A stretch of 64,000 nucleotides of DNA from Desulfurispora thermophila DSM 16022 (GTDB taxonomy: Bacteria > Bacillota > Desulfotomaculia > Desulfotomaculales > Desulfurisporaceae): the NCBI RefSeq assembly GCF_000376385.1, contig NZ_AQWN01000005.1, positions 124,001-188,000 on the forward strand. The letters run 5' to 3'. Made by a program: the position numbers and the translations under genes. This document shows positions 1,807-16,083 of this stretch, piece after piece. Every line of letters starts with the position of its first letter. Within the stretch, counting starts at the first letter, position 1. The notes under the pieces are model-generated. The model made no database searches and was not told the origin of the DNA. It saw nothing but the letters and a program-made list of their open reading frames with translations.

Positions 1807-2381
1807 ATATAAGTTTTTTCGCGAGAGCAGTGGTTGATATTATAGATGAGCACAAAGCATTAATTGATGTGGTACATGATATGGCACCTAGTATAGAACA
1901 ATTTGCTAAATTAATGGCAAAAACACTTGCAAGTGGTTGTAAAATTCTTCTCTGTGGTAATGGTGGATCGGCGGCTGATGCTCAGCACATCGCTGGGGAA
2001 TTGGTAGGGCGATTTTTAAAAGAGCGGAGCCCGCTTCCGGCACTTGCCCTTAGTGTTAATTCATCTGTCTTGACGGCTATAGGAAACGATTATGATTTTA
2101 GAGAGGTTTTTGCTAGGCAGGTGGCAGCTCTAGGGTGTCCGGGTGATTTGTTGGTAGCTATTTCCACAAGTGGTAATAGCCCTAATGTCCTGCGGGCTTC
2201 TGAAGTGGCTAGGGAAAAAGGCATGAAGATTGTTGGTTTGACAGGTGGTGAAGGAGGAAAGTTGAAAGGGTTGTGTGACCTTTGTATTAATATCCCATCA
2301 AAAAGTACGCCTCGCATTCAGGAAATACATATTCTGATTGGACATATTGTATGCCAATTGGTGGAGGAAGCGTTGTGTTAA
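1791..2381 (+). CDS. gmhA: Phosphoheptose isomerase (GmhA, SIS domain)
   Basis: SIS-domain isomerase of 196 residues, the normal GmhA size. It carries [11 protein letters not shown] at about 56-66, STSGNSPN at 125-132 and [13 protein letters not shown] at 173-185; the last includes the glutamate and histidine used for isomerisation in this family. It converts sedoheptulose 7-phosphate to D-glycero-D-manno-heptose 7-phosphate, the first committed step of heptose-donor synthesis in the cytoplasm. The ATG has a GAAGGTG site inside the 3' end of hddA, so the genes overlap and are probably translationally coupled. Confidence 0.9.
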
Positions 2382-3568
2382 GGCAGGCTGTTATATTGGC
2401 TGGCGGGTTGGGTACGCGTTTGGGGGAGCTCACACGAAAAACTCCCAAACCACTCTTAAATGTGGGAGGTAGACCTTTTTTAGAATATGTGGTGTGGAAC
2501 CTGCGACGTTACGGGATAACAAAGCTCGTTTTCTGTGTAGGATATTTGGCTGATGATATTGTGAGTCATTTTGGTGATGGAAGTCGTTTCGGGGTTTCAA
2601 TTGATTATATTGTTGAGCAGGAACCTGCAGGAACGGGTGGAGCTTTGTTGTTAGCGAAATACCGATTAGATGAGATGTTTCTTGTACTTAATGGTGATAC
2701 AATTTTTGATATTAATTATTTTGATCTTGGATTATTAATGAAAAATAGCAAGGCAGCAGCAGTAATGGCTTTGCGCTCTTTACAAGATACTGGGCGTTAC
2801 GGTAATGTATGCCTAAAAAGACATTTGATAAAGGGTTTTTCGGAAAAAACAAGTAATGGCCCTGGTGTAGTGAATGGCGGTGTGTATGTCTTGCGAAGGG
2901 AGGTACTGGAAAGTCTTCCTGGTGCACCATGCTCGCTTGAAAAAGATCTCTTCCCATCGCTTGCTCAAACAGAATGCTTAGCTGGTCGTGTATATAATGG
3001 TTTTTTCATAGATATTGGGGTGCCGGAAAGCTTGCGCGAGGGAGAAATACTAATTCCACGTTGGTTAAAAAAACCGGCCGCATTTTTGGATCGCGATGGC
3101 GTGCTCAATGTAGATAAAGGTTACGTTCATCGTATAGAGGATTTCGTTTGGATCGAAGGTGCTCCGGAAGCCGTAAAATGGCTTAATGACCAGGGCTATC
3201 TGGTATTTGTAGTTACTAACCAGGCTGGTATTGCCCGGGGCTACTATACAGAAGAAGAGTTCTTGCGCTTTATGGATTGGATAAACGAGGAGTTGCGGCA
3301 ATTAGGTGCCCACATAGATGGGGTTTATTACTGTCCTCACCACCCTGAGGCGGGAATTAGGCATTATCGCTTTAAATGCCGCTGTCGCAAACCGTTTCCA
3401 GGGCTTTTAGAACAGGCTATGGCTGATTGGCTAATAAATGTTACGCAGAGCTTTATGATCGGTGACAAAGAAAGCGACGTCTTGGCTGCACAAGCTGCGG
3501 GTATTCGGGGAGAGCTTTTTTCTGGAGGGAACCTTTTGGAATTTGTGCGCAGGCTTGTCTGTGGTTGA
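2375..3568 (+). CDS. Fused heptose-1-phosphate guanylyltransferase and heptose-1,7-bisphosphate phosphatase (HddC-GmhB)
   Basis: Two complete enzymes in one chain of 397 residues. Residues 1 to about 225 form a nucleotidyltransferase with [14 protein letters not shown], a VLNGDT metal-binding strand and the NGGVYV turn, matching HddC-type guanylyltransferases. From about 233 a HAD phosphatase begins with FLDRDGVLN, then [10 protein letters not shown], the cysteine/histidine zinc loop ([19 protein letters not shown]) and [10 protein letters not shown], all typical of GmhB. The pair would remove the 7-phosphate and then load GMP, giving GDP-D-glycero-D-manno-heptose. The start chosen is GTG at 2375, with GGAGGA 6 bases upstream and a 7-bp overlap with gmhA. 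An ATG at 2351 is in frame but has no site. Confidence 0.86.
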
Positions 3569-4092: not shown

Positions 4093-4137
4093 TCCTGGTA
4101 TGGTTTAAGTGAGCAAAGAAAACCACCAATACCAGGA
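4093..4137. repeat. Inverted repeat just upstream of the IS110 remnant
   Basis: TCCTGGTAT at 4093-4101 pairs perfectly with ATACCAGGA at 4129-4137, extended by GGTT/AACC (4102-4105 with 4121-4124) after a bulge. The 3' arm overlaps the AGGAGG ribosome site (4134-4139) of the transposase. The hairpin could limit translation of the transposase or mark the left part of the element. The structure is visible; the role is inference. Confidence 0.6.
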
Positions 4138-4147
4138 GGGAGCCGAC

Positions 4148-4732
4148 TTGAACAACACCCTAAGCCAGAAACTGGCCATGGTCACACCCGAAACACTAAT
4201 TGTGGGAGTAGACGTGGCCAAGCACACCCACTACGCACAACTGATCAACTTTCGGGGGGAGGCGCTGCAAAAGCCGTTCCCATTCCAGAATACCACATCC
4301 GGCATTGGTAATCTAGTCCATCAAATCAAAATGAACCAGCTAAAGCATGGCCTTTCCTGTGTACTGGTAGCCATGGAACCCACCGGCCATTACTGGCTTC
4401 CCCTAGCTTGTGCCTTGTTGGAGCAGGGGATCGCGGTGGTCATGGTCAACCCGCACCATGTTAAAAAGGCCAAGGAGCTAGACGACAACTCACCCACCAA
4501 GCGGGACGACAAAGATGCCGGAGTAATCGCCCGCCTGACACAATTGCTCAAAGAAATCCCCCATGCCAGCTACCTGCTGACCATACCCGGCATGAGTACA
4601 GTGCAAGTAGCAAACATCATCTCCGAAGCAGGCGACCTGGACAACTACAGTAGCGCCCGGCAGCTAATCAAACTGGCCGGCCTGAACCTGGTGGAAAACA
4701 GCTCTGGTAGTCACAAAGGACCCTGTATATGA
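4148..4732 (+). pseudogene. IS110-family DEDD transposase with internal deletion
   Basis: The N-terminal RuvC-like DEDD domain is present: LIVGVDVAKHTHYAQL (first Asp), AMEPTGHYWLP (Glu) and KRDDKDAGVIARL (last Asp residues). It jumps directly at about residue 137 into the C-terminal Transposase_20 domain (LTIPGMSTVQVANIISEAGD, LIKLAGLNL, SGSHKG), then stops early. A full IS110 transposase is about 400 residues; this chain is 194, so roughly 150 residues linking the domains and the C-terminal end are gone. The likely start is TTG 4148, 8 bases after AGGAGGG, rather than the upstream GTG at 4109. It is probably inactive. IS110 elements use a structured RNA from their non-coding ends, so the flanks may hold bridge-RNA remnants. 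Confidence 0.82.
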
Positions 4733-5152: not shown

Positions 5153-6790
5153 ATGCCTTTCTTGCCTAAAAGCGTAAATATGATACGCTTCTTTAAGAAA
5201 AGTAATAGTTTGATAATAACAGCGGGTGTGATGTCCATTGTATGTTTTATACTTTTGGGGTTATTGCTGTGGAGGGGTGCGTATCCAACACCATTTAAAG
5301 ACGAATTTTACTTTGTATCACTATATAATGACGCGTTGAAAGGTGTTTTATCTTTTGATGAGCTTTTTCGCCCACATAACGGTCACATTTATGTATTGCT
5401 GAAGCTGCTTCTTTGGGCGGTGGTATATTTCAGGATAGACCTCCGGGTTCTCATGTATGCTCAGAGCATACTGATTTCCTTGACTGCTGGATTACTTGCC
5501 TATGTAGTTTATCGCGATAGAGAATCACGTTTAGGACTGGTTACCGCAATTATTGTAGCATTAGCTGTATGTAGTGCTCGCCAATATGAGAATCTTTACT
5601 GGGCAATGCAGATATCTTTTGCTGCAATGATGTTTTTCACGGTTGTTGCGTTTGTATTTACAGAGCGTTTTGCGCGGAATAATAACTTGGGATCTGCAGG
5701 GATAGCAATGGTCTTGGCATTCTTGGCGATGCTATCTGCAGGAGCAGGAATTATCAGTTTTGTTCTCGTAGTAATAGCAATTTATATGACAAGTGGTTCT
5801 AATCGCAGGACTAAAGCAATATCAATAGTCGTTACTATCGTAGGATTATTGGTATTTATTCTTCCTCAAGTTTCAACTTTAGAGAATATAAAAAATGCAC
5901 AATCTGACACAACTCTGCTGAGTGTGGGTAATATAGCGGTTTATCTTCTAGCCTATTTCGCAAATACAATTTTTTCGTTTTCCGTGCGCGGTGATGATTT
6001 AATGTCGTTGGCACTCGGAATTTTGCTACTTACAGTGACGTTATGGCTTCTTATTCGTTTAAGGCATGATTGGCGCAATAATCTGCTTCCCTTTTTGCTT
6101 GTTGCTTTTGCACTGGCTACGGCTACTCTAATATCAGTTGCACGACTAAAAAATGGTATTTGGCAACCGAACGCTCCACGCTATTATCCACTGGCTTTGC
6201 CGCTTCTCATTGGAGCTATGTTATTATTGTTTCGTGTTGGTCGACTAATGCTTTTTGATCGTGTCATCATTGGTGTATTTTTAATTTCAATGCTTACCTC
6301 AAGTGTTTATGCATATTTAGTAGAGTGGAAGACGACACCATATCGATTACGAAGTCTAAGTATGGCACATATTTCTCTATGTTCTGGTCAAACCGTGGGG
6401 CTTGCGTTTGATGGTGACATTGAACAAACTAATTTAGATATTATGAGACGTGCATTTTGTAAGCCAGAGGACATTGTTCAAAGCCGTAAGATAACAAGAG
6501 CGCTTTTGTTCTTAAAAGATTTTGGTCCTAGGGATATTTATGCCGGAAAAGATTTCAATGTGCAACCGGACGGTATGAGTGCTATATGGGCAAACACCGA
6601 AAACGCGACGCCAACAACGGTTTTGGTATTGGGAGGAGAACAACTCCGGTCTACTGTCAATGAGCATGGTAATCTCGTGACTGCAGGTGTTCCAAGACAC
6701 CTCTGCGCGCAAAAAGGTGAATATACATTGTACTTGTTCGATCCTGTTACTGGTAAAAAGTCTAACGAACTAAGGTTTGTTGTGAGATAA
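5153..6790 (+). CDS. Polytopic membrane protein, probable GT-C-type glycosyltransferase
   Basis: Hydrophobic protein of 545 residues with about ten predicted membrane spans, then a C-terminal non-membrane part of about 150 residues. After the first span comes a loop with PTPFKDEFYFVSLYNDA, whose acidic pair is placed like the catalytic Asp/Glu in the first outer loop of GT-C enzymes that use lipid-phosphate sugars. The start chosen is ATG 5153, preceded by GAAGG; the frame is open further upstream but without good starts. It is AT-rich compared with the rest of the window, suggesting transfer. Its neighbours are polyprenyl-phosphoryl-pentose genes, so it may use that donor outside the membrane. 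No family was identified with certainty. Confidence 0.6.
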   Translation: MPFLPKSVNMIRFFKKSNSLIITAGVMSIVCFILLGLLLWRGAYPTPFKDEFYFVSLYNDALKGVLSFDELFRPHNGHIYVLLKLLLWAVVYFRIDLRVLMYAQSILISLTAGLLAYVVYRDRESRLGLVTAIIVALAVCSARQYENLYWAMQISFAAMMFFTVVAFVFTERFARNNNLGSAGIAMVLAFLAMLSAGAGIISFVLVVIAIYMTSGSNRRTKAISIVVTIVGLLVFILPQVSTLENIKNAQSDTTLLSVGNIAVYLLAYFANTIFSFSVRGDDLMSLALGILLLTVTLWLLIRLRHDWRNNLLPFLLVAFALATATLISVARLKNGIWQPNAPRYYPLALPLLIGAMLLLFRVGRLMLFDRVIIGVFLISMLTSSVYAYLVEWKTTPYRLRSLSMAHISLCSGQTVGLAFDGDIEQTNLDIMRRAFCKPEDIVQSRKITRALLFLKDFGPRDIYAGKDFNVQPDGMSAIWANTENATPTTVLVLGGEQLRSTVNEHGNLVTAGVPRHLCAQKGEYTLYLFDPVTGKKSNELRFVVR

Positions 6791-6947
6791 AAATACAAAT
6801 TACCATCAACTGTTTAGTCATTCCGCTTATCAAAGTGTCGGTAAAGATGAGATTTTCAATGAGGTGAGTAAATAGTTATGCGGGCCCCAGAGTTTCAATT
6901 GATAAAGTCAGGGACGCCTCTTAATATTTATTTCGACATCCATCTCT

Positions 6948-8456
6948 GTGTTGCTTCTGTTGATAGTGGCTTTCTTTTCACTGCGTTACTACGCACAATC
7001 GAAGGCTGCGTTTTTCGATGACACATTTATATATTTGCATATAGCTCGAAACGCGATCGAATCAGGAACGTTTCAGTATTTTCCTTTGGTAAACCGAGGG
7101 GCATTGCTTGCATCCTCCCCACTAAAGTTGTGTATATTAACCATAGCAGCTTGGTTGTCAAATTTACTTGGATATACGGAGCGTTCTATAGAAGCGGCAC
7201 GTGTATCGTTGTCATTGTATGGCGTGTTGCTTTATATATTGTTTTCGTTTTTTTGGCTTAAGAACATACGTTATTATTTGTGGGTTGGTGTATTTTATTT
7301 TTTCCTAGCAGGTTGTCTGGATACTGTTTTTGAATTTGAGGGTGGTTTGTTGCTCCTTTGGTCACTTACTATGGTGATGCAGCTTAGACAAGAAAAAATC
7401 CCCAATTGGCAATTGGCGTTAACATTCCCTTTGGGATTATTAATACGTCCAGATTTATCTATGTTAATATACCCAGTGTTATTGGGAATGATTATTAGGC
7501 GTGGTTTATTGCAGAAGCGACATTTATATTTAATTATATCTGGTGGGGTAATAGTTATATGTATTTGGGTAGTTATTGCTATGTTAATGGGTGTCTATCC
7601 TATACCTGTAACCTATTGGGCTAAGGCGGCAATTCCGAAATTGTTTGATAAGCAATCCTTACTTGAGGTTCTTTTTGTGCGACTCGGACGTATATTTGTT
7701 TCGCCGAACTTAGGGTTGTCAGACAGTAATTTAGCTTTGGTGGGATATGTAACCATAGCAATGGTATTTTGGTTAGTTTTATTGATTGATGATAACAAGT
7801 GTGCGAAGATTGGATTTTTACCTGAGGTGGTGATAGTGACTTTAATTGCTGGTACAATGTTCTCGCGCATGCCAGCTAATTATTGGTGGTATTACCAGAA
7901 TATTGCGGTATTGATATGTATTATTTTATTGGCAACTATTTTTGAGGGAAAATATTTATTAAAAAGATTGGTTGCGAGTGTATCCTTAACCGTTTTGGTT
8001 ATTTTGCTCAGTACAAAGTTTATTGTTAACCCTCAATTGCCTTGGGATTTTGCAAGAGATACGAGAGCGCAAGGTTATAAATTTATTGGCGAACATGCAA
8101 CAGGGAGGGGGACATATATATTGCCAATAATTGGTGAAGTAATTATAAAAAACCCAGAAATTGGGATGATATCATATTTTTCAGGAAGGGGAGCTTGGAT
8201 TTGGGATAGTGCTGGGCTAGCTCAACCTGCAATTGAACTAGGGGCATTGAACTCGAAAATTAAATATTTTTATCCAAAGCGTTTGTGGGAATCGCCGAAT
8301 GTGGAAGTGCATCGTATAGAGGGAAAATCGTCATTTCCTATTTATGAAGTGTGGGCATTGGATGATAGAGACTATGATGCTGCAAGAAAGAAATGTCAAA
8401 TTGTCATTGAGGGAGCGGCGATCGGAGCTAACCTATACAAAACAAATACTAATTAA
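6948..8456 (+). CDS. Polytopic membrane protein, probable GT-C-type glycosyltransferase
   Basis: About 502 residues with many membrane spans and a C-terminal soluble segment. Right after the first span is AFFDDTFIYLHIARNAIESG and then LASSPLKL. This DD...Y...N...SPL arrangement recalls the first outer loop of AftB/Emb-like GT-C arabinosyltransferases and PMT-type enzymes, where the acidic pair is catalytic. Start is uncertain: GTG 6948 lacks a good ribosome site and a stop lies upstream at 6903. A second frame opens at ATG 6878 after GAGGTGAG and overlaps, so a frameshift near the true start is possible. AT-rich like its upstream neighbour. Role as lipid-linked-sugar transferase is inference. 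Confidence 0.6.
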   Translation: MLLLLIVAFFSLRYYAQSKAAFFDDTFIYLHIARNAIESGTFQYFPLVNRGALLASSPLKLCILTIAAWLSNLLGYTERSIEAARVSLSLYGVLLYILFSFFWLKNIRYYLWVGVFYFFLAGCLDTVFEFEGGLLLLWSLTMVMQLRQEKIPNWQLALTFPLGLLIRPDLSMLIYPVLLGMIIRRGLLQKRHLYLIISGGVIVICIWVVIAMLMGVYPIPVTYWAKAAIPKLFDKQSLLEVLFVRLGRIFVSPNLGLSDSNLALVGYVTIAMVFWLVLLIDDNKCAKIGFLPEVVIVTLIAGTMFSRMPANYWWYYQNIAVLICIILLATIFEGKYLLKRLVASVSLTVLVILLSTKFIVNPQLPWDFARDTRAQGYKFIGEHATGRGTYILPIIGEVIIKNPEIGMISYFSGRGAWIWDSAGLAQPAIELGALNSKIKYFYPKRLWESPNVEVHRIEGKSSFPIYEVWALDDRDYDAARKKCQIVIEGAAIGANLYKTNTN

Positions 8457-8688
8457 AAACCTAAGATTTTATGAACGACAATGACTTAACTTCTGGGAGA
8501 TGGAGATCATAAAGCATTAGGATATTATTAATGTTTGATTTGTAGCAATGGGACAGTTGCTTCGGTTTATTACTAGTCAATAATGTAGTAGTTAGCATAT
8601 TTTATATGTCTTACATTTTTACTTTATATCTAATTTAAATAATTTATTTCTGGGTATGGTGTAATTTTGTAAGCGGAGAGCTAAAGAG
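8457..8688. other. AT-rich intergenic region
   Basis: An AT-rich stretch between the second GT-C-like gene and the UbiA gene. No ORF, repeat or terminator was recognised. It marks the point where base composition changes from AT-rich to more balanced. The UbiA ribosome site (GCGGAGAG) is at its 3' end. Confidence 0.5.
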
Positions 8689-9576
8689 ATGAATAACCAA
8701 TTGATTAAACAAATAATAAAACTCATTCGCCCATACCAGTACATCAAAAATAGCTTCGTCCTGCTGGGCGTAATGTTCTCAAAGCAATGGGATAAACAAA
8801 CACTTTTATCTGCTGCCCTTGCCTTCCTGGCCTTTTGTGCTATAGCCAGCAGTGTGTACGTGTTTAACGATATCATGGATATTGAGGCGGACAGACAGCA
8901 TCCCACCAAGAAAAACCGGCCGCTGGCCAGTGGGGCGATTTCTGTGCAGGTTGCCTGGTCTATATCGGGTGGGCTTGCTTTGTTGGCCCTGTTGCTGGCT
9001 GCCATTGTCGGACTCTGGATGGTGCTTTTCATTGTTTTGTATGCCGTATTGAATGTGGGGTACTCTCTGCGCTGGAAGCACATTGCGGTTCTGGATGTGT
9101 TTATCATTTCAGCGGGGTTTATGTTGCGCATCCTGGCGGGTACAATGGGATTAGAAATAGCACCTTCATCCTGGCTTTTATTGTGCGGACTTATGCTGAC
9201 CTTGTTTTTGGGTTTTGCCAAGCGCCGGGCGGAACTTATTGTCATAGAAAATGGCGGGGGGAGCGATCGGGCGCTTACGCGCAAGGTGCTGAGCGACTAT
9301 AGCCCGGTGATTATAGAGCAGTTTATGTCCATCAGTGCTGCCTGTACCATATTGAGCTACAGCCTTTATACAGTCAGCCCGGAAACAGTGGCCCGCCATG
9401 GCACACAAGATTTGATCTACACTGTGCCCTTTGTTGTTTATGGCATATTTCGCTATGTTTTCTTGCTACATCAGCGCGGGAGGGGTAACGACACGGCACG
9501 CGACCTCTATTCAGATCCGCACTTACTATTAACTGTGCTCGCCTGGGGTATAGTTACCCTGGTGGTGTTATCATGA
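8689..9576 (+). CDS. UbiA-family prenyltransferase, probable polyprenyl-phosphate phosphoribosyltransferase (DPPR synthase-like)
   Basis: Integral membrane UbiA-fold protein of 295 residues. The first aspartate-rich motif NDIMDIEAD is at 60-68, followed by RPLASG at 77-82. The second conserved loop (YSLRWKHIAVLDV, about 125-137) also fits the family. The overall pattern matches the Rv3806c group, which joins phosphoribosyl pyrophosphate to polyprenyl phosphate on the inner membrane face, rather than quinone or heme UbiA enzymes. Co-location with DprE1- and DprE2-like genes supports this. Its stop overlaps the next start by ATGA. No gene for the 5-phosphate phosphatase that follows in mycobacteria was found in the window. 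Confidence 0.83.
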   Translation: MNNQLIKQIIKLIRPYQYIKNSFVLLGVMFSKQWDKQTLLSAALAFLAFCAIASSVYVFNDIMDIEADRQHPTKKNRPLASGAISVQVAWSISGGLALLALLLAAIVGLWMVLFIVLYAVLNVGYSLRWKHIAVLDVFIISAGFMLRILAGTMGLEIAPSSWLLLCGLMLTLFLGFAKRRAELIVIENGGGSDRALTRKVLSDYSPVIIEQFMSISAACTILSYSLYTVSPETVARHGTQDLIYTVPFVVYGIFRYVFLLHQRGRGNDTARDLYSDPHLLLTVLAWGIVTLVVLS

Positions 9577-10538
9577 GCGCGATGTGTCTTACCGGACGCC
9601 GCCTGCAGGGACTGGCTATCTCTATTGCACTTGCAGCGGCAGGTTATCTGGCCTTTGCCTTTTGGGGTGGTTGGCAAGATGTTATCTCAGCTTTTGGCGC
9701 GGTAGGCGTGACGGGATTGGTATTGGCGCTAATCCTTTCCCTTGTGAACTATGGGCTGCGCTTTGTACGCTGGCAATATTATCTCGGTGAACTTGGAGTA
9801 CACATTCCTGTCACTGCCAGTGCCCTGACTTACGTGGCTGGTTTTGCCCTCACTACAACACCAGGCAAAGCGGGAGAAATGTTGCGGGGAGTTTTCCTTA
9901 AGTCATATGGTATGACCTTTACACATAGTACAGCTGCTTTTGTGAGCGAACGCCTCTCCGATCTGACCGCGGTAGTACTGCTGGCTTTGTTGGGTGTTAC
10001 CCTGCAGCCGGGTGGGAGTACAATTTTACTTGCTGGGATGCTCGTTGTTACTTTGGGCCTGGTCATTCTCTCGCGTGGTAACATGCTTGCAACACTATCC
10101 AGTCGACTGGCAGATCGTTCTGGACGGTTGGCACGGGCGATCCAGCACGTCTTGACTTTACTCATGGAAGCGCGACGTTGCCATGCTCCACGACTTTTAT
10201 TGATTGCGACTGTTTTATCAGTGATGGCCTGGTCATCTGAGGCGTGCGCGTTTTACCTCATCCTACACTGGTTGAGCTTTGATGTCAGCCTGCCCTACGC
10301 CATTTCCGTATATGCTCTGGCCATGTTGGCAGGAGCGCTCAGTTTCCTGCCCGGCGGCCTCGGGGGAGCGGAGGCAGTAATGGTCGGCCTGTTGCTCTGG
10401 AAAGGGATGCCGGAAGCACAGGCTGTAGCGGCAACAGTCATTATTCGTCTCGCCACCCTGTGGTTTGCCGTAGCTTTGGGAGTGCTGGCGCTCCTGCTGG
10501 GCGGGCGTTTTTTAGCGGTGCAACAACCCGGTTCGTAA
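9573..10538 (+). CDS. Flippase-like membrane protein (lysylphosphatidylglycerol synthase TM / UPF0104 family)
   Basis: Hydrophobic protein of 321 residues with about eight spans. It has the conserved core of the LPG_synthase_TM/YbhN family: LRFVRWQYYL, then TTTPGKAGEMLRG, then FVSERLSDL, and a late FLPGGLGGAEAVM motif. Members are found with lipid-linked sugar pathways and are thought to help move lipids across the membrane. Translational coupling (ATGA) to the UbiA gene and position before DprE1 suggest it serves the polyprenyl-phosphoryl-pentose made here. That function is inference from context; the family call is firm. Confidence 0.82.
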   Translation: MSAMCLTGRRLQGLAISIALAAAGYLAFAFWGGWQDVISAFGAVGVTGLVLALILSLVNYGLRFVRWQYYLGELGVHIPVTASALTYVAGFALTTTPGKAGEMLRGVFLKSYGMTFTHSTAAFVSERLSDLTAVVLLALLGVTLQPGGSTILLAGMLVVTLGLVILSRGNMLATLSSRLADRSGRLARAIQHVLTLLMEARRCHAPRLLLIATVLSVMAWSSEACAFYLILHWLSFDVSLPYAISVYALAMLAGALSFLPGGLGGAEAVMVGLLLWKGMPEAQAVAATVIIRLATLWFAVALGVLALLLGGRFLAVQQPGS

Positions 10539-10604
10539 TAAAAAACATAAACAGTTATGAGCACTACCAAAATCTGTTGTCTATAAATAAGGAAGATGAT
10601 ATAA

Positions 10605-11903
10605 ATGCGCACAGTATTATCCTGGAACCGCTATCCCCGCCAGGAGCATGATGCGATTTTATCCCTATATGATCGTTTCAGCGACTTGCCCCGTACCAAA
10701 GTGCCATGTTTGCCGCATGGCAACGGACGCAGTTACGGTGATGTTTGTCTGAACGAAGGGGGAGTATTGCTACACACGCGCAGGCTGGATCGCTTTATCG
10801 CCTTTGACCGCACAACCGGACGCCTGCGCTGCGAGGCGGGAGTATTGCTAAAAGAAATTCTCGACCTGGTTCTACCCTATAACTGGTTCCTGCCTGTCAC
10901 ACCCGGTACGCAGTTTGTCACAGTAGGCGGTGCCATTGCCAATGATGTGCACGGCAAAAACCATCACTGTGCCGGATCCTTCGGCAACCACGTGGTTTGT
11001 ATGGAATTACTGCGCTCAGACGGGCAGCGCATACTATGCAGTATGGAAGAAGCAAAGGAATGGTTTACCGCTACCATTGGAGGCCTGGGGCTGACAGGAT
11101 TGATAACCTGGGCGGAGATTCAGCTTTTGCCGGTATCTAACCCGTGGATTTTAGTGCAGTCCCGCCGTTTTACCAGCCTGGACGAATTCTGGGAAATTAA
11201 CCAGGAGGCGGAGAAAAACTGGCCATATACTGTGGCCTGGCTGGATTGCCTGTCGGCAGGTCGTGGACAGGGGAGGGGGATCTACATGGCCGGGCGGCAT
11301 GCACCGGCGGGAGCGAGTTTGCCCGAACGTCGCTCCAGAACCCTGCGCTTTCCCTTTGACCCACCTTTTTCGCTGGTAAATTCCCTGAGTTTAAGGTTAT
11401 TCAATGCCCTCTACTACCACAAGCCATTAAAGCAAGAACCGGCTATATTTCATTTCGAGCCGTTTTTCTACCCCCTGGACAGCATACTGGAATGGAACCG
11501 CATCTATGGCAGGCGGGGATTTTTCCAGTATCAGTGTGTTATCCCCCCGGAAGCGGCGCAAGAAGGCTTAAAAGCCATGCTGGACAAAATTGCCGCCAGC
11601 GGCCAGGGTTCCTTCCTGGCAGTACTCAAGACCTTTGGCAACGTTCCGGCCCGGGGTTTGCTGTCCTTCGCCCGCCCGGGAGTAACACTGGCACTGGATT
11701 TTCCCAACCGCGGCCAAACAACACTACAATTGTTTAACGAATTGGACGCCATTGTGCGCGATGCGGGAGGTGCGCTCAACCCTTCAAAAGATGCTCGCAT
11801 GCCGGCTCATATGTTCAAAACCGGCTTTCCCCGTTGGGAACGTTTCGCTAATTTCATCGACTCCAGGTTTTCGTCCAGCTTTTGGAGGAGGGTGAGCAAG
11901 TGA
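10605..11903 (+). CDS. dprE1: DprE1-like FAD-dependent decaprenylphosphoryl-ribose 2'-oxidase
   Basis: FAD_binding_4 oxidoreductase of 432 residues. The FAD-binding stretch HGNGRSYGDVCLNEGG lies at about 39-54 and the flavin-histidine region GGAIANDVHGKNHHCAGSFG follows, as in Mycobacterium DprE1. The C-terminal half keeps the family pattern, including the lysine region NPSKDAR. At the position matching the mycobacterial active-site-adjacent cysteine (Cys387 by recalled alignment, ICVDFP) this protein has alanine (LALDFP). The enzyme would oxidise the 2-hydroxyl of polyprenylphosphoryl-ribose to a keto intermediate. It overlaps dprE2 by GTGA, so the two epimerase halves are probably made together. 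Confidence 0.88.
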   Translation: MRTVLSWNRYPRQEHDAILSLYDRFSDLPRTKVPCLPHGNGRSYGDVCLNEGGVLLHTRRLDRFIAFDRTTGRLRCEAGVLLKEILDLVLPYNWFLPVTPGTQFVTVGGAIANDVHGKNHHCAGSFGNHVVCMELLRSDGQRILCSMEEAKEWFTATIGGLGLTGLITWAEIQLLPVSNPWILVQSRRFTSLDEFWEINQEAEKNWPYTVAWLDCLSAGRGQGRGIYMAGRHAPAGASLPERRSRTLRFPFDPPFSLVNSLSLRLFNALYYHKPLKQEPAIFHFEPFFYPLDSILEWNRIYGRRGFFQYQCVIPPEAAQEGLKAMLDKIAASGQGSFLAVLKTFGNVPARGLLSFARPGVTLALDFPNRGQTTLQLFNELDAIVRDAGGALNPSKDARMPAHMFKTGFPRWERFANFIDSRFSSSFWRRVSK

Positions 11904-12655
11904 GCAAACCTCAACGTATTGTAATTTTAGGAGCTACTTCGGCAATAGCTGCTGCCTGTGCCCGCCTGTGGGTGGCGCGGGGCAATAGCCTTTTCCTGGT
12001 GGGGCGCAATGCAAACAAGTTGGAAAGCCTGCTGGCTGATTTACGGGTGCGCGGGTCTCCAGAGCAGCAAATTGCAGGCATGGCTGCAGACCTGAACGAT
12101 TTCCATCGCCACGAAGAAATATTTGTCCGGGCCGAACAAGCCCTGGGCGGGTTGGATGTAGTGCTCATTGCCCACGGTACCCTATCGGAGCAGCGTGCTT
12201 GTGAGCAGTCTGTGGACTTAACCATGCAGGAGATCCGCACCAATGCCCTGAGCGTTATATCTTTGCTCACCATTGCGGCCAACAAAATGGAGGCCCAGGG
12301 CAGTGGTACGCTGGCCGTTATCAGTTCGGTTGCCGGAGACCGGGGGCGCCAGAGCAACTATGTCTATGGTGCGGCAAAGGGCATGGTAACTTTGTTCATG
12401 CAGGGACTGCGTAACCGTCTGGCCAGGCGGGGTGTAGCTGTTGTTACCATCAAACCGGGCTTTGTTGATACTCCCATGACTGCACATATAGAAAAAAAAG
12501 GTGCTCTATGGGCCAGTCCCGAAACTATTGCCAGGGGTATTGTGGATGCGGTTGAGAAGGGGAGGGATGTTGTCTACTTGCCACGTATATGGCGTTTGAT
12601 CATGCTGGTAATAAGGCATATACCAGAAGGTATATTTAAGAGAATGTCTTTGTGA
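11900..12655 (+). CDS. dprE2: DprE2-like SDR, decaprenylphosphoryl-2-keto-pentose reductase
   Basis: Short-chain dehydrogenase of 251 residues. It has the NAD(P)-binding segment VILGATSAIAAACARLWV near the N-terminus and the catalytic serine plus YGAAK motif at about 148-165. In the paired pathway it reduces the 2-keto intermediate from DprE1 to the arabino epimer. The start is GTG 11900, 7 bases after a strong GGAGGAGGG site that lies inside the dprE1 3' end; a TTG at 11882 is in frame but lies upstream of that site. The 4-bp overlap with dprE1 is strong evidence for joint function, since SDRs alone are hard to assign. Confidence 0.85.
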   Translation: MSKPQRIVILGATSAIAAACARLWVARGNSLFLVGRNANKLESLLADLRVRGSPEQQIAGMAADLNDFHRHEEIFVRAEQALGGLDVVLIAHGTLSEQRACEQSVDLTMQEIRTNALSVISLLTIAANKMEAQGSGTLAVISSVAGDRGRQSNYVYGAAKGMVTLFMQGLRNRLARRGVAVVTIKPGFVDTPMTAHIEKKGALWASPETIARGIVDAVEKGRDVVYLPRIWRLIMLVIRHIPEGIFKRMSL

Positions 12656-12660
12656 GGAAA

Positions 12661-13590
12661 ATGAGTAAAAGCGATTTCTTGGATATAGCCATAGTTATCC
12701 CAACCTTAGATGCAGGAAGCAATTTTGAAAAGCTATTGCAGTCTCTTAACAGGCAAAGTTTAATGCCGAACCAAATTGTCATCATAGATTCAGACTCCCA
12801 AGACCATACAGTAAACCTTGCCCATAAATACGGTTGTACCGTTATCCCCATCAAGCGCAGAGATTTTAACCATGGTGCCACCCGCCAGCTAGGGGCGGAG
12901 TATACGGGAGCAGAGATAGTAGTTTTTTTAACTCAGGACGCCATTATAGCAACTGAAGACTCATTAGAAAATATTGTTAGGTGTTTCAGTGACCCGGCTG
13001 TCGGTGCCGCTTACGGTCGCCAGTTGCCTCATCCTAATGCTTTGTCCATCGGGGCGCACGCTCGCTTGTTTAATTACCCACCGGTGAGCAGGATCAAAAC
13101 TTTGGCGGATGCTCCAGAACTGGGGATTAAAACAGCTTTTATATCAAATTCTTTTGCTGCTTATAGAAAGAGTGCTTTGAAAGAGGTAGGCGGTTTCCCC
13201 GGCCACGTTATTTTAAGCGAGGATACATATGTTGCTGCCAAAATGTTACTGGCGGGGTGGAAGATCTATTATTGCGCCGAGGCGCAGGTTTATCATTCTC
13301 ATGACTACAGTATTTGGCAGGAGTTTAAACGCTACTTCGATACAGGAGTCTTTCACGGACGGGAGCCCTGGATACGCCAGACATTCGGTCAGGCGGAGGG
13401 GGAGGGGCTGAAGTATGTTCTTTCTGAGCTGAAGTACCTTTGGACCAATGGCAAAAGGTTTATACCCAGAGCCTGTCTGCAAAACCTGGGTAAAATTTGG
13501 GGATACAAATTGGGGCTGAATGAAAAGTACCTTCCTCTGTGGCTGAAAAAGAAACTGAGTATGCATAAGCATTACTGGGATCAGCAATAG
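12661..13590 (+). CDS. Family 2 glycosyltransferase (rhamnosyltransferase-like)
   Basis: GT-A fold transferase of about 309 residues. It opens with IAIVIPTLDAGSNFEKLLQSL, has the nucleotide-binding VIIDSDSQDHT segment, the FNHGATRQLGA signature common in rhamnosyltransferases, a VFLTQDA stretch replacing the usual DxD region, and a late SEDTYVAAKML motif. It probably transfers a deoxyhexose from a dTDP donor to a surface glycan, but the sugar is not certain. ATG 12661 was chosen, with TGAGGA just upstream; a GTG at 12652 overlapping dprE2 is also possible. It directly follows dprE2 in the same direction. Confidence 0.82.
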   Translation: MSKSDFLDIAIVIPTLDAGSNFEKLLQSLNRQSLMPNQIVIIDSDSQDHTVNLAHKYGCTVIPIKRRDFNHGATRQLGAEYTGAEIVVFLTQDAIIATEDSLENIVRCFSDPAVGAAYGRQLPHPNALSIGAHARLFNYPPVSRIKTLADAPELGIKTAFISNSFAAYRKSALKEVGGFPGHVILSEDTYVAAKMLLAGWKIYYCAEAQVYHSHDYSIWQEFKRYFDTGVFHGREPWIRQTFGQAEGEGLKYVLSELKYLWTNGKRFIPRACLQNLGKIWGYKLGLNEKYLPLWLKKKLSMHKHYWDQQ

Positions 13591-13695: not shown

Positions 13696-16083
13696 TTGGC
13701 CAAGAAAAAGAAGCAGCAGGGCGCATTATCCATTGGCACAGCAGCCCTGCCTGTGACTTACCACCTGGCCTTCTGGGGCCTGGCGTTGCTCTTTATTTTC
13801 CCCCCATTCTTCAGGGGCCTGTTTTTTGCCACGGAACAGCAAAAGGCCCTTTTTGGGGCGCTGCTGGTGCTGGCTGTGGCCTGGCACTACCGCTTCCGGC
13901 AGGGGCGGACGCGCCCCTGGGGCCATGTTATGGACTGGCTGGTGCTGGCTTTCCCGCTGGTTTATGTGCTGGCGGCTTTTCGGGCGGTGAACAGCGGCCT
14001 GGCGGTGGACGAGATTGTCAAAACGCTGCTTTATTTTATTGTCTACTTCCTGGTGATCACTCTGGTGCGCGGTGCGCTGGATGTGCGGCGCCTGCTGCAA
14101 ATTATTTATTTGACCGGGGTGGGTGTAGCGCTGGCCGGTCTGGCCACGGCCACAGGCATTATACATATTAAAGACGGTTTTCTGGAAGGGCGCATTTACG
14201 GCACCTTTCAGTACGGCAATGCGTTGGCCAGTTATTTAATTGTTATCGCATTAACCGGTTTTTACTTGTGGCAGTCCAGCCACGGCCGGGATACGGCGCA
14301 GCTTTTGCGCCTGAGCAGCCGGTCAGCTTTGCCCGGTTGGCTGGCCGGGCTTAACCCCTATCACTTTTTTTATGTGCTGACCAATATGCTGGTGCTGATC
14401 ACGTTGTTTGGTACGCGTTCCAATGGCGGCATTATGGTTTTCGCCGTCATCTTGCTGCTCTATTTCTGGGGTGTGCCGGCCGCCTACCGGGTGGCGGCGC
14501 TGTACCATGTGGCCGGCCTGTTACCTGTGGCCCTGCTGGTGGGGCTCAAGTTTACCGCGCTGGCGGTGGCCAACCAGTTCGACAGGGCCTGGCTGTGGGT
14601 GTTTGCCGCGGCTTTTTACGCGCTGGCCTGGCAGGTGCTGTACAATTACGGTTTGAAGCTGGGCCTGTGGGAAAAACTATCCCGCCGCCAGGTGTACTTG
14701 CTGGCTGTGGGGGCCGGGCTGGTGCTGCTGGCGGCCGGTGTTTTCGCCTGGCAGTTCCAGGCCAACCAGCAGTTCCATGACAGGGTTATTGCTCTGCTCA
14801 AGGTGCGCAATGTGCTGGAGCGCTTTGCCTTCCACGAGGCAGCACAGGAAATGTTTCAGCAGCGGCCGCTGCTGGGCTGGGGCGGGGGCGGCTGGCAGGA
14901 GTGCTACCGCACCTTCCAGAACTACGGTTACATTTCCACCCAGGTGCACGGCCATTTCTTCCAGGTGGCGGTGGAAGCTGGGGCTCTGGGAGCCGGGGTG
15001 TTCCTGGCCATCTGGGTGGTCTTCTTCTGGCTGGCCCACCGCTGCTATTATGGTACGTCCGACGCCGGACGGCGCCTTTTAGTCTGGACTCTGGCCCTGG
15101 CCGTACTGGGTGTGGGTTTGCACGCCTGGCTGGATTTTGATTTGTCTCTTTCCGCCCACGCCATAGTGCTCTGGGCCATGTGGGGTATGATGCGGGCTCT
15201 GGCTGTGCCGGCAGAGGCGGGAGTGGCGACCGGGCAGGGTAAGCCCGAGGGGTCTTGGCGCCTGCGGCCGCTCCTCTGGTATGGCGGTCTGGCCATGATT
15301 GTTGTGCTGCTGCTTGGTACTGGCTGTTTGATTACCGCGGAAAAAGCTGCCCGCCAGGCGACCAGCGCGGCCCGCACCGGTCAGGGGGCGGTGGCTCTGC
15401 AGCAGATGCAAAAGGCGGCCGCTTACAACCCTTTCCGGGCCGAGTTCCATATCAATTTGAGCAAGCTGTATTTACAAAAGGGGGACCAGCAGGCGGCTCT
15501 GGCGGAAGGGCAGCGGGCTTTGCAATGCAGTCAGTATGCTTCCCTGCCCCGGGCCAATCTGACCAATGTTTATTTTGAAATGGGTGACTACGCACAGGCG
15601 GTTTCCTACGCCCGGCAGGCGGTGCAGCAGGGGTCGCTGCAAAACCAGTGGTATGAGCTTTTGGGCCGCACCTGTTTTGCCGCTGGCACCAATCTTTTGA
15701 TCAAGGGACAGCGGGAGAAAAGCGCCGCCTATTTGCGCCAGGCGGCGGCCGTGCCCGAAATGATCAAACAGCGCCTGGCCCGGGTGACCGAAGAAGAAAT
15801 GAAGCTGTGGATTCAGGAAAAGCTGCAGGAAACGTCTGCCGTGCAACTCTCCGCGGGCGCGGCCCATTGCTTGCTGGGTGAATATGCCCTGGCCGAGGGC
15901 AAGCTCAAACCCCTGCTCCAGAATCAGGAGCTGAAAGGCGAGGCCGCCCTGTGGCTGGCCGTGGCGGCGCAAAAGCAGGGCCGGGTGCAGGAGGCGCAAC
16001 AGTTGCTGCAGCAGGCTCAGTCCGCGGTGCCCGAACTGGCCAAAGGCTTCCAGTTCTTCGTCTCTGCTGTGCCGGTGAAATGA
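13696..16083 (+). CDS. O-antigen ligase-like membrane protein with C-terminal TPR domain
   Basis: Protein of 795 residues. The first ~500 are a polytopic membrane domain with about twelve spans and the Wzy_C/WaaL signature region: LLGWGGGGWQECYRTFQ followed by VHGHFFQVAVEAG. After a final span come TPR repeats (ALQQMQKAAAYNPFRAEFHINLS and later copies) ending in an Ala/Gln-rich stretch. Such ligase/polymerase proteins join lipid-linked glycan to an acceptor (O-antigen, S-layer or pilin type) on the outer face. The start is TTG 13696, 9 bases after GGGGAGG. A GCCGGTGT/ACACCGGC inverted repeat (13612-13658) precedes it. GC is clearly higher than in the upstream island, so it may belong to the core genome. 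Confidence 0.8.
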   Translation: MAKKKKQQGALSIGTAALPVTYHLAFWGLALLFIFPPFFRGLFFATEQQKALFGALLVLAVAWHYRFRQGRTRPWGHVMDWLVLAFPLVYVLAAFRAVNSGLAVDEIVKTLLYFIVYFLVITLVRGALDVRRLLQIIYLTGVGVALAGLATATGIIHIKDGFLEGRIYGTFQYGNALASYLIVIALTGFYLWQSSHGRDTAQLLRLSSRSALPGWLAGLNPYHFFYVLTNMLVLITLFGTRSNGGIMVFAVILLLYFWGVPAAYRVAALYHVAGLLPVALLVGLKFTALAVANQFDRAWLWVFAAAFYALAWQVLYNYGLKLGLWEKLSRRQVYLLAVGAGLVLLAAGVFAWQFQANQQFHDRVIALLKVRNVLERFAFHEAAQEMFQQRPLLGWGGGGWQECYRTFQNYGYISTQVHGHFFQVAVEAGALGAGVFLAIWVVFFWLAHRCYYGTSDAGRRLLVWTLALAVLGVGLHAWLDFDLSLSAHAIVLWAMWGMMRALAVPAEAGVATGQGKPEGSWRLRPLLWYGGLAMIVVLLLGTGCLITAEKAARQATSAARTGQGAVALQQMQKAAAYNPFRAEFHINLSKLYLQKGDQQAALAEGQRALQCSQYASLPRANLTNVYFEMGDYAQAVSYARQAVQQGSLQNQWYELLGRTCFAAGTNLLIKGQREKSAAYLRQAAAVPEMIKQRLARVTEEEMKLWIQEKLQETSAVQLSAGAAHCLLGEYALAEGKLKPLLQNQELKGEAALWLAVAAQKQGRVQEAQQLLQQAQSAVPELAKGFQFFVSAVPVK

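Follow-up and report, generated by a model that had tools for sequence, protein, structure and literature searches.

A probable lipid-linked arabinofuranose donor locus with two GT-C-like proteins in Desulfurispora thermophila

Gene content and the donor enzymes

We analysed a 64,000-nucleotide stretch of the Desulfurispora thermophila DSM 16022 genome, referred to here as the window (contig NZ_AQWN01000005.1, positions 124,001-188,000; the assembly comprises 2.82 Mb in 19 contigs). Positions 5153-13590 hold seven intact frames on the + strand, among whose products, as described below, are a set that very probably makes lipid-linked D-arabinofuranose (D-Araf) and two membrane proteins that are likely to attach it to a surface glycan. 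An earlier note on this DNA had listed here a UbiA-type, a flippase-like, a dprE1 and a dprE2 gene preceded by two genes for polytopic proteins, all of which are present, and had proposed a lipid-linked arabinose donor system with two GT-C-like enzymes. Our analysis supports that proposal, and none of the outcomes that the note had named as refuting it was seen; the sugar and the polymer that it decorates are parts that we infer. The seven genes are as follows.

5153-6790, + strand (frame open from 5012): GTC1, GT-C-like polytopic protein of 545 residues, about 11 transmembrane segments, C-terminal soluble domain (motifs)
6948-8456, + strand: GTC2, AftB-like GT-C protein of 502 residues, at least nine transmembrane segments (ortholog, profile, residues)
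8689-9576, + strand: UbiA-fold polyprenyl-phosphate phosphoribosyltransferase of the Rv3806c (DPPR synthase) type, free-standing, without a HAD domain (profiles, residues)
9573-10538, + strand: PF03706/COG0392 flippase-like membrane protein, candidate lipid-linked arabinose flippase (Pfam, gene context)
10605-11903, + strand: DprE1-type flavin adenine dinucleotide (FAD) oxidase (profile, PDB match, residues)
11882-12655, + strand: DprE2-type short-chain dehydrogenase/reductase (SDR), a keto-reductase with catalytic motif YGAAK (profile, sequence)
12652-13590, + strand: GT2 glycosyltransferase (Pfam; 50% identical to a Motiliproteus GT2 protein, locus L078, encoded near dprE1 and an ABC exporter)

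The genes had been described as overlapping in one run. This holds for UbiA and COG0392 (4 nt) and for dprE1 and dprE2 (22 nt), and dprE2 and the GT2 gene also overlap by 4 nt; between COG0392 and dprE1 it does not hold, as a gap of 66 nt separates them. The G + C content at third codon positions (GC3) is 0.33-0.34 in the GT-C genes, 0.52-0.59 in the donor genes and above 0.8 in ffh and trmD.

The UbiA protein exceeds the cut-off of the decaprenyl-phosphate phosphoribosyltransferase equivalog NF008977 (267.6 versus 234 bits) and that of NF008978 (212 versus 207 bits), and matches Rv3806c with an E-value of 3e-34; its scores on the quinone and heme models of NCBIfam are far lower. It retains K28, Y70 and Y138, the residues of the phosphoribosyl pyrophosphate (PRPP) 5-phosphate site and reaction centre in Rv3806c (PMC10994848), and the NDxxDxxxDRxHPxKxxRP loop, which are invariant or nearly so in 72 homologues. 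The protein is thus of the Rv3806c kind, as the earlier note had suggested, and these profile scores and residues rule out a quinone or heme enzyme.

The best family for the DprE1-type protein is by far NF053785 (E = 1e-101). It matches the mycobacterial DprE1 structures in the PDB with an E-value of 2e-72, and other FAD enzymes at about 1e-8 at best. Y60, H132, K134, W230, Q336 and K418 are all retained, a set that we take to represent the active site from general knowledge of DprE1 structures. Profile scores and residues again rule out an unrelated lactone oxidase. The position of Cys387, the benzothiazinone target, which is dispensable for catalysis, is occupied by Ala in the window protein and in all 80 aligned non-actinobacterial DprE1 proteins. 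For the DprE2-type protein, the best model is an unspecific SDR family, NF005489.

Pfam returns only the broad families UbiA, FAD_binding_4 and adh_short, as would be expected if a quinone or heme synthesis enzyme and unrelated lactone-oxidase-like and SDR enzymes lay together by accident. This explanation is refuted by the specific models and residues, by the recurrence of the module across phyla (see below) and by the presence of two other UbiA proteins in the genome, both of which have much higher scores on the general UbiA profile and could account for quinone/heme synthesis. A second alternative is that the set stops at lipid-linked ribofuranose (Ribf) or makes another pentofuranose, the DprE pair differing from that of mycobacteria, so that the glycan would carry ribose or another epimer. 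Ribf and xylofuranose (Xylf) systems do share the entry enzyme (PMC11127046), and the best model of the DprE2-type protein is unspecific. We nevertheless consider it quite improbable: DprE1 and DprE2 are paired and the DprE1 residues conserved, and candidate systems of Araf-containing strains are reported to hold DprE1/E2 homologues, and Xylf systems a different epimerase (PMC11127046).

Recurrence of the module, the flippase candidate and the phosphatase

A DprE1 scan with a four-sequence alignment yielded 80 named loci, which together with three loci from the same phylum gave 83 for comparison. The 80 are mostly proteobacterial; Verrucomicrobiota, Chloroflexota, Nitrospirota, Acidobacteriota and Thermodesulfobacteriota are also represented. 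The window order UbiA-COG0392-DprE1-DprE2 is found in the nearest relatives, namely Chromohalobacter, Halomonas, Parvibaculum, Pseudomonas, Janthinobacterium and genomes G042 and G190; many other loci have the order COG0392-[HAD-UbiA]-DprE1-DprE2. The neighbourhood comparison that the earlier note had proposed thus shows the four-gene module recurring in dozens of genomes across phyla, and because these genomes are unrelated a chance grouping is excluded. In the DprE1 tree, the window protein groups with those of G042 and G190 (100/100), inside a 13-member clade that is otherwise proteobacterial (100/97). This nesting suggests that dprE1 was probably acquired by transfer, and the differences in GC3 agree.

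Other features were seen beside these modules. A NAGPA (phosphodiester-glycosidase) protein follows dprE2 in the closest same-phylum relatives (L012:12457-14145, L013:12073-13788). About 22 loci (including L029, L031, L035, L039, L040, L044, L049, L052-L055 and L059-L061) combine the arabinose module with an FAD amine-oxidase-like gene beside a GtrA gene; in some of them a GTC1-type GT-C gene is nearby. In another genome of the phylum (L011/L016), a dprE1 fragment (G088:C5:23336-23617), 71% identical over 94 residues and carrying an in-frame stop, is possibly the remnant of a pilin-linked arabinose system.

The COG0392/PF03706 protein scores 170.9 bits on its Pfam model against a cut-off of 33.4. 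In 44 of the 83 loci, no more than 300 bp separate a gene of this family from ubiA or dprE1. Of four further COG0392 genes, three lie no more than about 0.8 kb away, and the fourth belongs to a short contig for which no core gene was called; no additional copies were seen elsewhere in the 1.35 Mb of compared loci. COG0392 proteins were proposed in 2015 to flip lipids or lipid-linked saccharides (PMC5898192). Because of the proximity in 44 loci, the protein is likely to be the flippase of the lipid-linked pentofuranose donor. In the literature that we found, COG0392 is not tied to such donors, and the recurrent COG0392 gene is the most useful new point of this analysis. Several loci lacking COG0392 carry a GtrA-family gene, which directly precedes dprE1 in L093 and L098. 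The two kinds of gene tend to be mutually exclusive (Fisher p 0.006, which is no true probability since the loci are related; the count missed further GtrA genes, later seen in L078, L093 and L098).

The relatives differ in the protein that may remove the 5-phosphate. A HAD domain is fused to UbiA in about 53 loci; in six (L020, L022, L023, L024, L026 and L041), UbiA is separate and DprE2 is followed directly by a free HAD protein; and a DUF212 protein lies beside UbiA or COG0392 in L014, L078 and L098, as identified by Pfam, and in L093, as read from the sequence. The three appear to be alternative providers of the 5-phosphatase activity, and phosphatase and flippase are predicted to be exchangeable parts of the module. 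The window contains no linked 5-phosphatase, as the earlier note had observed. The genome has only two PAP2 genes, both unlinked, which could supply this activity. One PAP2 domain (L105:9499-10758, - strand, G000:C5) is joined to a thiamine-phosphate synthase domain in a single frame, an odd fusion; the other PAP2 protein is encoded at L106:6255-7118.

The missing linked phosphatase, the GC3 mosaic and a short IS110 frame at 4109-4732 would also suit a decaying import that makes nothing. All seven frames are intact, however, with operon-like overlaps, active-site residues are retained, and the PAP2 genes elsewhere could provide the phosphatase; we regard decay as scarcely probable.

The two GT-C-like proteins

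The motifs noted earlier are found at residues 48-51 of GTC1 (FKDE) and 22-25 of GTC2 (FFDD), so that in both proteins the conserved position of the first loop is acidic. Direct searches with GTC1 and GTC2 (Pfam, NCBIfam, PDB, plasmids, viral contigs, and class and phylum samples) returned almost nothing, GTC1 having no sequence match in Pfam, NCBIfam or the PDB; useful relatives came from reading the dprE1 neighbourhoods. Both proteins belong to GT-C-like families that have no Pfam model and recur beside dprE1.

The GTC1 motifs PFKDEF, HNGH, YENL and RY match those of a family with the pattern PFWDQW..HNEHR..WEN..RY, which occurs near dprE1 in seven loci and in one of them (L041) between ubiA and COG0392. 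Alignment of GTC1 with the dprE1-linked GT-C family by hhalign scored 93%, whereas unrelated controls reached no more than 2%. The soluble domain at the C-terminus of GTC1 is similar to that of a GT-C protein encoded near a rhamnose/ABC-exporter cluster in a genome of the same order. In that locus (L104, G505:C11:112000-131900), the similar rml/ABC-exporter cluster is accompanied by the PMT_2-type GT-C gene, which encodes the GTC1-like C-terminal domain, by a GT2 gene and by an IS110 transposase next to the GT-C gene. AlphaFold2 models of GTC1, made without an alignment, and of GTC2 had predicted local distance difference test (pLDDT) values of 43-47, too poor for use.

In Brachymonas, the gene that immediately follows dprE2 encodes an ortholog of GTC2 (35% identity, E = 5e-63); both proteins contain FDD[TS]FIYLH and SSPL, and a DUF212-like phosphatase gene, UbiA and GtrA are further members of the Brachymonas locus. 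Four remoter relatives near dprE1 (L027, L047, L050 and L064) came from this motif or from a sequence search. The joint profile of this family matches a single molecule in the PDB, AftB (E = 2e-16), recovering the resemblance to mycobacterial arabinosyltransferases claimed in the earlier note. By hhalign, the GTC2 family aligns with its AftB-like neighbours at 97% over 394 columns, compared with less than 2.2% for the other proteins and GT-C candidates tested. In AftB, D62 is catalytic, and T91, E172, R221, T274 and R372 contact the donor (PMC12041299). D62, R221 and T274 correspond to D25, R167 and T222 of GTC2 in all three alignments; T91 is replaced by Ser in two, and R372 falls outside the coverage. 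GTC2 is tentatively assigned, from profiles and residues, to an AftB-like family, and by analogy might have a retaining mechanism and form a beta-linkage.

Glycan setting, proposed pathway and significance

The seven genes are flanked in the window by the following frames.

39-683, + strand: C-terminal part (GT4-like domain) of a 1174-residue sulfotransferase/GT2/GT1-type glycosyltransferase whose start lies upstream of the window (L017:15160-18684)
790-1806, + strand: hddA-like D-glycero-D-manno-heptose 7-phosphate kinase (NF049969, E = 7e-89, 298 bits, under the 600-bit cut-off)
1791-2381, + strand: gmhA-like sedoheptulose-7-phosphate isomerase (sequence reading alone, no profile)
2351-3568, + strand: fusion of an HddC-like sugar-1-phosphate nucleotidyltransferase and a GmhB phosphatase, for GDP-D,D-heptose supply (profile match)
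4109-4732, + strand: short IS110-type transposase frame of 207 residues, probable remnant, between the heptose and GT-C genes
13696-16083, + strand: O-antigen-ligase/Wzy_C-like polytopic protein with a TPR tail, possible glycan ligase or oligosaccharyltransferase (Wzy_C under the Pfam cut-off)

Upstream, mostly outside the window and absent from the earlier note, is a glycan cluster comprising a WbaP-type sugar-phosphate transferase, an adenosine 5'-phosphosulfate (APS) kinase (L017:8933-9508), rmlD, rmlB-like and rmlA genes, and a Wzm/Wzt exporter with a Wzt_C domain. The 1174-residue protein combines a sulfotransferase-like segment, under the Pfam cut-off, with two glycosyltransferase domains; this weak segment and the APS kinase suggest that the glycan is possibly sulfated. 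The genome contains 20 SLH-domain matches. The cluster looks like one for the synthesis of an ABC-exported rhamnose/D,D-heptose glycan of S-layer type.

The acceptor could instead be a pilin, flagellin or other protein, the donor being made in the same way and transferred as by TfpW to Pseudomonas pilins. Type IV pilins bearing D-Araf have been documented in Pa5196 (as cited in PMC12369383), and the dprE1 fragment of another same-phylum genome (L011/L016) lies near pilin-assembly-like genes. No pilin or flagellin gene lies near the window cluster, and glycan-polymer genes are found on both sides, so that we judge a protein acceptor unlikely.

We favour a pathway, with each reaction inferred from family knowledge, in which UbiA would convert PRPP and polyprenyl phosphate to polyprenyl-P-ribose-5-P, an unlinked phosphatase would remove the 5-phosphate, and the DprE1/DprE2 pair would invert C2 by oxidation and reduction to give D-arabinose. 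The COG0392 protein would then move the lipid-linked donor across the membrane, where GTC2, and perhaps GTC1, would transfer D-Araf to the rhamnose/heptose glycan of the ABC-exporter cluster, probably of S-layer type; the donor of GTC1 is possibly another lipid-linked sugar. We give this pathway as a whole a probability of about two in three.

Several results weigh against it. Both DprE proteins fall below their equivalog cut-offs (341.4 versus 500 bits for NF053785; 180 versus 250 for the DprE2 model NF053786), and we therefore name them DprE1-type and DprE2-type. The window genome yielded neither a linked nor a related HAD or DUF212 phosphatase, and no free HAD of the Halomonas type. The AftB match is lost when the four remoter relatives are left out and the profile is built from GTC2 and its ortholog, so that the link runs via those relatives; GTC2 alone does not match a partial AftB sequence, and E131 is aligned with AftB E172 in only two of the three alignment modes. 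The GTC2 model has a pLDDT of 43, and its best Foldseek matches, to ArnT, are insignificant (E = 0.3). Finally, the closest same-phylum relatives, L012 and L013, have no adjacent GT-C genes, which, with the GC3 of 0.33 versus 0.52-0.59, suggests that the partnership of GT-C and donor genes may be recent.

The window set is a variant of the three-component pentofuranose addition systems described in 2024, which include DprE1/E2 in Araf-containing strains (Kelly et al., PMC11127046). Of that scheme it has the entry enzyme (PPPRS), a candidate flippase, GT-C-like genes and the pair for epimerization; no phosphatase of the types linked in relatives was found. Citrobacter youngae O1/O2 (GT136, PMC11127046) similarly combines a UbiA-type PPPRS, a candidate flippase and a GT-C protein for decorating surface glycans outside the membrane. 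Here, however, COG0392 replaces the MATE flippase, UbiA has no fused phosphatase, two GT-C-like proteins lack a GT136 assignment, and the setting appears to be S-layer-type rather than lipopolysaccharide. The UbiA, DprE1 and DprE2 types are shared with the mycobacterial decaprenylphosphoryl-arabinose pathway (Rv3806c, Rv3807c, DprE1, DprE2, Rv3789; AftA-D, EmbA-C), and GTC2 resembles AftB. The window differs from that pathway in having no linked Rv3807c-type phosphatase and no galactan context, and in having COG0392 where mycobacteria have the SMR/GtrA-type Rv3789 and Ala where they have the drug-target Cys. Pilin arabinosylation in Pseudomonas paraeruginosa and P. syringae (TfpW, PSPA7_6245-6251 island) likewise joins lipid-linked D-Araf donor genes to a GT-C transferase, but with a pilin linkage not found here. 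The PF03706 membrane domain is common to the COG0392/UPF0104 family, including the N-terminal domain of MprF and the C-terminal domain of AglD, with proposed flipping of lipids or saccharide-lipids in S-layer glycosylation (PMC5898192); unlike the family at large, COG0392 is tied here specifically to polyprenyl-phospho-pentofuranose genes.

The arabinose-lipid flippase of mycobacteria is disputed, Rv3789 having been viewed as a flippase or as an anchor protein (PMC7389260). The COG0392 family, which recurs next to the donor genes both in Proteobacteria and in genomes of the window's phylum, is a direct and testable flippase candidate. The loci further bring to light GT-C-like families that are linked to arabinose donors and for which Pfam has no model, and would extend D-Araf decoration to a cluster resembling those for S-layer glycan synthesis. 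Tentatively, COG0392 may be the dedicated polyprenyl-phosphoryl-pentofuranose flippase of D-arabinose systems across phyla, with a GtrA-type alternative, and GTC1 and GTC2 may define new families of arabinofuranosyltransferases, with a glycan of S-layer type as acceptor.

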